Assembly: GCA_947490345.1 (NCBI GenBank)
Contig: CANLGL010000010.1
Coordinates: 49,835-113,834 of the forward strand
From: Deltaproteobacteria bacterium
GTDB lineage: Bacteria > Myxococcota_A > UBA796 > SXON01
Direction of reading: 5' to 3'
Length of the DNA stretch: 64,000 bases
Positions 60,566 to 64,000 of this stretch are shown here, piece by piece. The notes beneath the pieces were generated by a model. It was not told where the DNA came from. It did no database searches and was given only the letters and a program-made list of their open reading frames with translations. The position numbers and the translations under genes are program-made. Numbering within the stretch: position 1 is the stretch's first letter; every line of letters begins with the position of its first letter.

Positions 60566-62185
60566 TCATCGAGTCTTCATCTCCCGCACCTTGAGACCGA
60601 GCTGGTTGAAGCGGAGCTGAATCTTCCGCGCGCCCGTATCGTCACCTGTCAGTACACGGGACATCGCTGAAAAGTCGCCGTCGAGCTCTTCCCAGAGCCG
60701 CGAGTAGAGCTGTCGCTCGACGTCCTGGGCCACGTGGTTCAGGGTCGGGTCGGGGTGGACCACCACCTGGCAGCGCCAGCCCTCCTCGGTCCCCGGCCGG
60801 TCGACGCGCACGGCGTGAAGCAGGTCCCGAACCAGCTTCGGGCGCACCTGGACCACATCCCCGCGCGCCCCCATCGGGAGCGCCGCCAGCTCCGCAAACG
60901 TGAAGGTGAGGGCGTTTTCGAGGACCATGCTGAATTCGCGCAGGTTTCCTGGCCAACGGTGCCGGCGAAGCAAGCGCTGCGTACGTTCGGGAACGAGCAG
61001 CACCAAACGTCCGGGCACCGCCGCGGGGATCTCGGCGCCGAGCTCCACGACCACTTCGCCCGCGGGCATCGCGGACGTCCCCGCGCCAAGGCCGTTCTTT
61101 TCCCGGTACTCCAAGACCAGACCCGACAACGCCGACGACTCCACCGCGCGCTGGGCCGTCCACGCCAAAAGCCGCGAGAAGTCGCCGCGGCGTTCGACAA
61201 GCGGCGGGAGAATGACCGTGCACGCCGGATTCAGACGCATGTACAGGTCGGCGCGGAACCGCCCCTCTCTCACCCGGGCGGGCAAGTCCTCGTGGGTCGC
61301 CACCACCAACTTGACGTCCACCCGCCGCTCCACCGTGTCGCCAATGCGGGTGAGCACGCCCTCCTGAAGCACCGTCAGCAACATCTTCTGGACGTCCTCG
61401 GGCATGTTCCCGATCTCGTCCAGAAACAGCGTACCGCCGTCAGCCTCCTCAAACGCCCCTTTGCGGTCCGCCACGCTCCCGGTGTATGCCCCGCGCAGGG
61501 CACCGAAAAGTTGAGCCGCCACCAGGTCGCGCGGCAAGGTGCTGAGGTCCACGCTGACGAACTTTCCGCGACGCCCCGACCGCGCATGGACGACATGGCG
61601 CGCGACCATCGACTTTCCCGTCCCGGTGGGTCCGCCCAGGATCACCGGCAGGCGGCCGCGCGCCAGGACATGCAATCGCGAGCGGATCCGCCGCATCTGT
61701 GGGCTGCGGCCCCAGTAGACCGCCCCCTCACTGTCGCGACCGCGGCGCGCGCTGAGCACATTCTCGAACTGAACGCGGAGCGAACGGGCGTCGACATAGT
61801 CGTCGTCCAAGAAATAGGTGTACTCCTCGGCGGCGAGGCGCTCCGCCGCCTGTTCCAGCGCCACCTCGGCGCGGCTGGTCATCAGCACCACGGGAAGGTC
61901 GGGGAGGCGCCGACGCAACCGGGCGAGGATCTCGAGCCCCTGCCGGCGCCGCACGCGGGCTACGACCTTGGCGTCCGCCCCCACCGGAAGCCCCACGAGT
62001 TCGGCCTCGGCGATGTCGAAGTGCACGTCGAGCAACACCAGATCGAGCTCGCGGCGATGCAGCCGCAACAGCTCCAGCGCCGCCGCCCACGACCGTGCGG
62101 GGCCGAGGTACTCGTGCTCCGGAATCGCCTTCCGGCACAACTGCAGGTACCGATCTTGATCGTCGATCACCAAAATCGTCGCCAC
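60566..62185 (-). CDS. Response regulator with sigma-54-type AAA+ domain
   Basis: The 539-residue product is an NtrC-like activator. The receiver has the phosphoacceptor D53 in [11 protein letters not shown] after VIDDQD. The AAA+ core has the Walker [15 protein letters not shown], the sigma-54 contact loop as RGAYTGS (the usual GAFTGA with a final Ser) and Walker [14 protein letters not shown], then [11 protein letters not shown]. An unusual insertion of about 50 residues interrupts the region before [12 protein letters not shown]. The C-terminal 120 residues show HTH-like [12 protein letters not shown]. It begins at GTG 62185, immediately after the stop of the small protein upstream (no gap). 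Confidence 0.85.
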
Positions 62186-62636: not shown

Positions 62637-63347
62637 ATGATCTTGGCTCGGACTTTCTCCATCAGCCTGGCGATGGCGCTGGTCGGCTGCGCCGCGGAGG
62701 TCTCCGTCGATGTCGACGGCGATGCCGACGGTCTGCTTGGCAGCGAAGAAGCCGACCTCGGCACCGATCCTGACCTCGCAGACAGCGATGGTGACGGGTC
62801 CAACGACGGCGAAGAGCTCGCCGCGAACACCAACCCGCTGGATGGCGCCGAGTACCCCTACAAGGGGGGCTGGGCCATCGACAGCTGCAAGTCCGAAATC
62901 AAGGGCGAAGGCCTCGCCGAAGGCGACGTCTCCGAGGACTTCTCCTTGGGGGACCAGTTCGGCCAGAACGTGCACCTCTACAGCTTCTGCGACCGTGTGG
63001 TCTACCTGGTCTTCGCCGCCTTCTGGTGAGGCGCGTGCGTATCCGAGGCCGGTGGCCTCGAAGCAATCTACCAGGACAACAAGGACGACGGCTTCATCAT
63101 CGTCAACGCGATCACCGAGATCGACGACGGCAGCGCACCCGCTACCGAGGACCTCGCCACCTGGGCGGAGACTCATGGCCTCAGCATTCCGGTCGTCGCT
63201 GACCCTGAAAGTGCGTTGATGTGGAAGTACGCGGCCGACATGGAAGGCAGCGTGGGCCTCCCGTTCACGGTCGTCATCGACCGCGGGGTGGTGGTCGACA
63301 GCATCGCCAGCGGCACCCAGGTCGAAGCGGCCCTCGGCCTCCTGTGA
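62637..63347 (+). CDS. Redoxin-like lipoprotein, putative selenoprotein (Sec131, UGAC motif)
   Basis: From ATG 62637 the 236-residue protein has the lipobox ALVGC (Cys18) and thrombospondin type 3-like calcium-binding repeats (DPDLADSDGDGSNDGEELAA). A redoxin (AhpC/TSA/TlpA-like) domain starts DVSEDFSLGDQFGQNVHLYS and continues VVYLVFAAFW. A TGA (63027-63029) then stands in place of the first cysteine of the CxxC, followed by GACVSEAGGLEAIYQ, DLATWAETHGLSIPVVADPE and GLPFTVVIDRGVVVDSIA, ending at 63347. The sequence on both sides of the TGA is one coherent fold. A hairpin 14 bases after the TGA fits a bacterial SECIS. I read the TGA as selenocysteine; without recoding the product would lack its active site. 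Confidence 0.8.
63030..63062 (+). promoter_or_regulatory. Putative SECIS-like hairpin of the first Sec gene
   Basis: CGAGGCC-GGT-GGCCTCG (63044-63060) is a 7 bp stem with a GGT loop whose first base lies 22 nt after the TGA. This fits bacterial SECIS rules (loop G, 16-37 nt distance). It lies inside the coding sequence. Confidence 0.7.
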
Positions 63348-64000
63348 AACTGGTCGCCCTTCCGCTCGGCATCATGCTGCTGGGCTGCGCAGGCCTTTTT
63401 CCAGAGGAAGACACGGGGGATCCACCCGGCCGCCCCAACCGCGGCGGCGACGCGGACACCGACAGCGACTCCGATTCGGACAGCGACAGCGACTCCGATT
63501 CGGACACCGATAGCGACTCGGATAGCGACAGCGATTCCGACACCGACACCGACACCGACACCGACAGCGACACCGGCGCGGACACCGGCGGCGGAAACGA
63601 CGACGACGGTGATGGGCTCAGCAACGACGAAGAGAACGCGCTGGGCACCGACCCGAACGACGCCGACTCCGACGGCGATGGCGTTGGCGACAAGGAAGAG
63701 GTCGATCAGAACACCGACCCCCTCGACGCCAGTGACACGCCGTACCTCGGCGGCTGGGCCAAGGATGCCTGTCGCGACACGGTGCGCGGCGAAGGCTACT
63801 CCGAAGGCGACGTCAGCACCGGGTGGACGCTCGCGGACCAGTACGGACAGGACGTCTCGCTCCACGACTTCTGCGACCGCACGATCTACATGGTCTTCGC
63901 CGCCTTCTGGTGAGGCGCGTGCCAAAGCGAGGCCGGTGGCCTCGAAGACCTCTACCAGGAATACGAAGCGGACGGCCTCATGGTCCTCGAAGTCATGATC
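63344..64000 (+). CDS. Second redoxin-like lipoprotein, putative selenoprotein (Sec190), cut by window edge
   Basis: GTG 63344 overlaps the stop of the first Sec gene (GTGA), so the two are co-translated. The product has the lipobox MLLGC (Cys15) and a long (DSD)n/(DTD)n stalk. TSP3-like repeats (DPNDADSDGDGVGDKEEVDQ) come next, then the same redoxin start (GDVSTGWTLADQYGQDVSLH), FCDRTIYMVFAAFW and again TGA (63911-63913). GACQSEAGGLEDLYQEYEAD continues to the window end. The TGA is at the homologous position, with the identical downstream hairpin. Being a paralogue of the first gene, it supports programmed recoding over decay. Confidence 0.8.
63448..63590 (+). repeat. Tandem repeats encoding the DSD/DTD stalk
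   Basis: GACAGCGACTCCGATTCG-type units, about 140 bp, encode the extended acidic stalk of the second Sec lipoprotein. Confidence 0.9.
63914..63946 (+). promoter_or_regulatory. Putative SECIS-like hairpin of the second Sec gene
   Basis: CGAGGCC-GGT-GGCCTCG (63928-63944) is identical in sequence and distance to the one in the first gene, although the five bases before it differ (CAAAG against GTATC). Confidence 0.7.

Follow-up and report, generated by a model that had tools for sequence, protein, structure and literature searches.

The 64,000-nucleotide stretch of contig CANLGL010000010.1 analysed here (the window, meaning the whole of that stretch) belongs to a Deltaproteobacteria bacterium whose genome assembly comprises 5.5 Mb in 129 contigs and is 92% complete. 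The window and the contig (C10) share their right end at position 64000, and there lie two overlapping paralogous genes for redoxin-type proteins, each carrying an in-frame TGA codon, and both genes almost certainly encode selenoproteins, judging from the sequence comparisons set out below. In both translations the TGA is preceded by FAAFW and followed by GAC, which puts it at the first active-site cysteine (Cys), as the first-pass annotation of this DNA had noticed; that annotation was also right that the frame of gene 1 runs past the inner TGA to a normal stop. Gene 1 starts with ATG at 62637 and its own terminator (63345-63347) is also TGA, while gene 2 starts with GTG at 63344, giving a 4-base overlap. 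Residues 25-157 of gene 1 are 56% identical to gene 2, which cannot be traced further since the window ends with the contig. The features of the pair, all on the forward strand and with selenocysteine abbreviated as Sec and selenocysteine insertion sequence as SECIS, are as follows.

62637..63347, forward: gene 1, a Sec-type TSP3-redoxin lipoprotein identified from its frame and translation, 236 residues with the TGA at residue 131 read through
62679..62690, forward: lipobox LVGC of gene 1, read from the sequence, with predicted lipidation at Cys18
62781..62843, forward: TSP3 repeat of gene 1 (PF18884, residues 49-69)
63027..63029, forward: in-frame TGA, predicted Sec131 of gene 1, aligned to ResA's first active-site Cys
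63044..63060, forward: SECIS-like hairpin of gene 1 (CGAGGCC-GGT-GGCCTCG), based on pair changes and a covariance model score of 75.8 bits
63344..64000, forward: gene 2, paralogue of gene 1, clipped by the contig end
63377..63388, forward: lipobox LLGC of gene 2, read from the sequence, with predicted lipidation at Cys15
63911..63913, forward: in-frame TGA, predicted Sec190 of gene 2
63928..63944, forward: SECIS-like hairpin of gene 2, identical in sequence to that of gene 1, covariance model score 75.2 bits

Both proteins have the same order of parts, with a lipobox leader followed by TSP3 repeats (PF18884) and finally, extending across the TGA, a redoxin domain (PF00578, PF08534). In gene 1 the AhpC-TSA (50.3 bits), Redoxin (41.5) and TSP3_bac (26.1) models each score above cut-off, and the TSP3 match, of calcium-binding type, reaches 53.9 bits in gene 2 against a cut-off of 25 bits. 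The calcium-binding-type stalks proposed in the first-pass annotation are thus supported, and of the lipid anchor the lipoboxes are visible in the sequence, lipidation itself being only predicted. The stalk of gene 2 also includes a long Ser-Asp/Thr-Asp dipeptide repeat (window 63440-63590) which resembles the repeats of Sdr/Clf surface proteins, these matches being composition-based.

The redoxin domain has the ResA kind of thioredoxin fold with its catalytic Cys pair, Glu and Pro, the predicted Sec replacing the first Cys. Compared with ResA, an extracytoplasmic thiol-disulfide oxidoreductase (PDB 4NMU, 1ST9), the window proteins are 23-24% identical and differ in having Sec for the first Cys, a TSP3 stalk, a lipobox and a second Cys pair. 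A role as ResA-like reductases outside the cytoplasm is likely for them. That these selenoproteins serve chiefly as peroxidases of the peroxiredoxin or thiol-peroxidase kind, and less as thiol-disulfide reductases, is unlikely. The peroxiredoxin motif PxxxTxxU/C, as given in PMC13188914, is missing from gene 1, which reads LVFAAFWU.

A search of the host genome for selA, selB, selC and selD, which the first-pass annotation had proposed, found all four, selB only as a 3' end at a contig edge. The tRNA-Sec gene (selC) scores 65.3 bits against a cut-off of 47 and is called by ARAGORN as tRNA-SeC with anticodon TCA; the same search gives some signal in 14 of 14 control genomes and passes the cut-off in five, so that only a match above cut-off counts. 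SelA scores 390.5 bits in the host, and its search gives a signal in two of the 14 controls. SelD (387.3 bits) itself has an in-frame TGA, within GGGUGCK (L020, G000:C42), the usual Sec site of SelD, and 17 nucleotides (nt) after that TGA there is a hairpin with a GG loop and an energy of -9.7 kcal/mol. For SelB the profile search of the host genome returned nothing above cut-off; its host matches were taken, from their length and place, as EF-Tu, IF-2, LepA, TypA, EF-G and RF3, and one candidate at a contig end (L019) was rejected as the start of a second tuf. However, a 4.6 kb segment of contig C37, reaching the very end of that contig, is homologous to the region around selB in the nearest genome, and it encodes the C-terminal 121 residues of SelB at 79% identity. 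Across the 22 genomes of the same family SelA was found in 19 and SelB above cut-off in 18. One genome (G011) has SelA and SelB yet, among the matches listed, only redoxins lacking TGA, and two others (G009 and G012) have TGA redoxins and SelB with no SelA match. That TGA forms and machinery occur together says little within the family because most of its genomes have the machinery.

Relatives of the two genes were searched for in family and order genomes translated through every stop codon. Gene 1 has matches in all 22 genomes of the family, the best match having exactly one inner TGA in 19 of these and none in the other three. Among the family and order matches listed, TAG occurs only in two that are TSP3-only, and TAA in none. 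A profile search of the order, with the best 43 candidates scored per genome, matched all 63 genomes at 1e-8 (8 to 43 matches each, some of them TSP3 repeats only), with TGA-bearing members in at least 39. In a sample of 282 genomes of the phylum, with the best nine candidates scored per genome, 61 matched at 1e-30, comprising 48 in the order, eight in the class outside the order and five elsewhere; TGA-bearing members occur in class and phylum too (e.g. G154, G065 and G144). No relative is encoded on viral contigs. One contig carrying redoxins of this family (CAMBIK010000104.1, L038) is labelled Klebsiella pneumoniae and is apparently a mislabelled metagenome-assembled genome.

The fetched loci, hand-picked from the top of the family and order match lists so that counts among them are not population frequencies, gave 116 members that differ from one another within the 18 codons surrounding the site; gene 2 matches a gene of L045 exactly over these codons and is represented by it, and members with a gap at the active site and matches above E 1e-6 had been dropped beforehand. 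These comprise 67 with TGA in the active-site column and Cys at +3, 43 with Cys in that column and Cys at +3, and six with neither. A crude script recognised a lipobox in 38 of the 67 TGA, 22 of the 43 Cys and four of the six other members, many members being N-terminally truncated. A quick tree of the 116 members implies at least nine changes between Sec and Cys, only three independent pairs lying on supported branches, which puts significance out of reach for a link between Sec/Cys state and hairpin on the tree.

The reading in which TGA is a plain stop, leaving short TSP3 lipoproteins that end in FAAFW followed by a remnant, draws on the fact that gene 1 does terminate with TGA and on database annotation, where 12 of the 23 proteins found stop exactly at the W preceding the TGA. 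That all homologues end at the TGA, an outcome which the first-pass annotation had raised, is not the case, as nine of the 21 database proteins inspected have Cys in place of the TGA and read on. Past the TGA the frame is open and related in every one of the 67 TGA members, and open reading frames running from stop to stop are what automatic gene calling would make of a Sec gene. The ratio of nonsynonymous to synonymous substitution rates (dN/dS) against the nearest relative (89% identical) is 0.111 past the hairpin and 0.168 ahead of the TGA, indicating purifying selection beyond the codon. With the Sec machinery present in the host as well, a plain stop is very improbable. That TGA instead stands for Trp or some other residue in a variant code can be dismissed as barely credible, for although the frame is open whatever residue TGA encodes, gene 1 itself terminates with TGA, the tRNA-Sec and Sec enzymes are present, and the 49 fetched members without TGA show Cys (43) or Pro, Asp, Ser or Glu (six) at the site, never Trp. 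The candidate selenoprotein reading of the first-pass annotation is supported by the machinery of the host and by the homologues in which Cys takes the place of the TGA.

Further support for decoding as Sec comes from the hairpin that follows the TGA. The bacterial SECIS (bSECIS) model described in PMC13188914 has a loop with G at its first two positions, set 16-37 nt from the TGA on the downstream side, and a folding energy of -7.5 kcal/mol or lower. Both window genes fit this model, with the loop 21 nt past the TGA and an energy of -11.5 kcal/mol. A hairpin at or below -7.5 kcal/mol was found in 33 of 37 TGA genes and two of 17 Cys genes of a first set, which was confined to members having Sec or Cys, and in 53 of 67 TGA, three of 43 Cys and none of six other members of the larger set. 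The loop begins with GG in 45 of the 53 hairpins and lies 16 to 29 nt from the TGA, a variation which suggests that different branches position the same kind of loop differently. Pair changes were followed in 36 of the 37 TGA genes, one further host redoxin (L033) being omitted as too distant. Of these, 24 have C-G as the outer pair, 10 have G-C and two have no pairing there, and all ten G-C members have Gln instead of Glu at the codon of the outer pair; at another pair one member has A-U for G-C. The covariation score of 0.161 compares with 0.072 in shuffles, none of 500 shuffles scoring as high. In a covariance model scan the next site after the two in the window reaches 12.5 bits, both window sites being part of the training set. 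Besides L033 (G000:C1:5454-5753), which has TGA at the first active-site position (FATW-U-PVC) and a hairpin that barely passes at -7.6 kcal/mol, another host redoxin (L025, G000:C34:36555-37079) has TGA at that position (GYFT-U-STC) and a weak hairpin of -4.0 kcal/mol.

Several results weigh against this interpretation. The hairpin threshold is missed by 14 of the 67 TGA genes, and the counts of two-sided pair changes (50/500) and of pair types (37/500) both fall within the shuffles. The window DNA is GC-rich, which makes a hairpin poor evidence at a single site: 168 of its 1228 TGA triplets pass a loose hairpin test and 47 reach the -11.5 level, plain folding z-scores of the two sites (-0.17 and -0.82) are nothing notable, and comparison of each window gene with synonymous codon draws gives only p 0.09-0.14. 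The hairpin argument is accordingly the contrast between TGA genes and Cys genes, not one about single sites. In distant pairs dN/dS is higher, with a downstream median of 0.525 (385 pairs, maximum 1.36) against 0.464 upstream of the TGA (425 pairs); synonymous sites saturate at such distances, so that the near pair bears the weight of the selection argument. The 3' end of gene 2 is out of sight beyond the contig. Finally, the curated ResA cut-off (NF002854, 170 bits) is unreached by gene 1 (39.3) and by the cut gene 2 (28.6); the window proteins likely work like ResA without being filed as ResA.

Taken together, these data argue with good probability for extracytoplasmic, lipid-anchored thiol-disulfide reductases of the ResA type, with TGA decoded as Sec and the redoxin domain held on a TSP3 stalk. 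In the proposed mechanism, where Sec insertion, lipidation, redox direction and electron donor are predictions, SelB and Sec-tRNA would read the TGA, aided by the hairpin whose GGT loop begins 21 nt downstream, and the product would be exported and then lipidated at the Cys of LVGC or LLGC. Sec131, standing where ResA has its first Cys, would be the residue that attacks a disulfide or oxidised sulfur; the selenenylsulfide so formed would be resolved by Cys134, and Glu137 would tune the active site, with DsbD as the probable supplier of electrons. The second Cys pair (Cys84 and Cys118) probably fastens the linker to the opposite face of the fold.

The first-pass annotation went too far in calling this a new kind of exported redox system. 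The accessible part of PMC13188914 lists 119 families, including UxxC redoxin, Prx-like and thiol-disulfide-isomerase-like selenoproteins, and the UxxC families of its Table 1 have a domain class (PF08534, PF00578, cd02966) and the UxxC motif in common with the window proteins. The words lipoprotein, thrombospondin and myxococc do not occur in the available text of that paper or in PMC9312934. No NCBIfam model passes its cut-off for the window genes, including two thioredoxin-fold families likewise named after a Sec motif, NF041054 (WAxxUGC; gene 1 only 12.4 of 300 bits) and NF053656 (TUGYCR; 15.2 for gene 1 and 19.7 for gene 2, of 100 bits). The pneumococcal Etrx1 and Etrx2 are also surface-exposed thioredoxin-fold lipoproteins, but with Cys not Sec, without a TSP3 stalk and in a Gram-positive host. 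A literature search on Myxococcota selenoproteins and on exported or lipoprotein selenoproteins, with most subscription journals outside its range, found nothing relevant. A new subfamily is the likeliest filing, set against the UxxC families of PMC13188914 by their description in the accessible text.

Because automatic annotation often shortens TSP3-redoxin genes, as the relatives cut at the TGA illustrate, a widespread set of predicted selenoproteins is hidden in public data. With Sec, Cys and inactive versions of one scaffold in a single order and a recoding hairpin that tracks the TGA, the family offers a test bed for the gain and loss of Sec, and for why an extracytoplasmic enzyme should use selenium.

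Beside the redoxin genes, in the window and in related loci, three further features were recorded.

60566..62185, reverse: sigma-54 activator with a partial receiver domain, divergent from the redoxin genes (PF00158 179.8 bits, PF00072 31.8 bits)
L092:15748-18573, with homologues in L093-L100: Invasin_D3/Big_1 protein of ~930 residues beside the redoxin cluster
L092:14542-15114, forward, and also in L072, L073, L074, L086 and L156: members without Sec or the usual Cys pair (e.g. ASQDGPT)

From its place, the sigma-54 activator is a possible regulator of the redoxin genes, and in eight of 10 related loci a homologue (assigned by clustering, with domains checked in one) stands beside the redoxins; a sigma-70 scan found no promoter. 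These loci have one to three TGA copies each, the nearest genome having three and a fourth copy that lacks both Sec and Cys. All six members that lack the active-site Sec/Cys pair retain the Cys84/Cys118 pair and are probably paralogues without activity; one lies in tandem with the three TGA copies. The invasin-type immunoglobulin (Ig) protein adjoins the redoxins in nine of the 10 loci, the contig ending there in the tenth (neighbours assigned by clustering, domains determined in two), and is a possible partner of the redoxins. More tentatively, and somewhat less likely to hold than to fail, the family could form an envelope selenium redox system of this uncultured order, in which TSP3-stalked redoxin lipoproteins are swapped between Sec, Cys and dead versions and duplicated in tandem, the Sec copies performing the chemistry and the dead copies acting as binding or regulatory partners together with the neighbouring Ig-domain envelope protein. 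The window also encodes an LCM-type methyltransferase (PF04072, 59525-60469, forward), and look-alikes, recognised by clustering and inspection, lie near the redoxin cluster in four of the 10 related loci.
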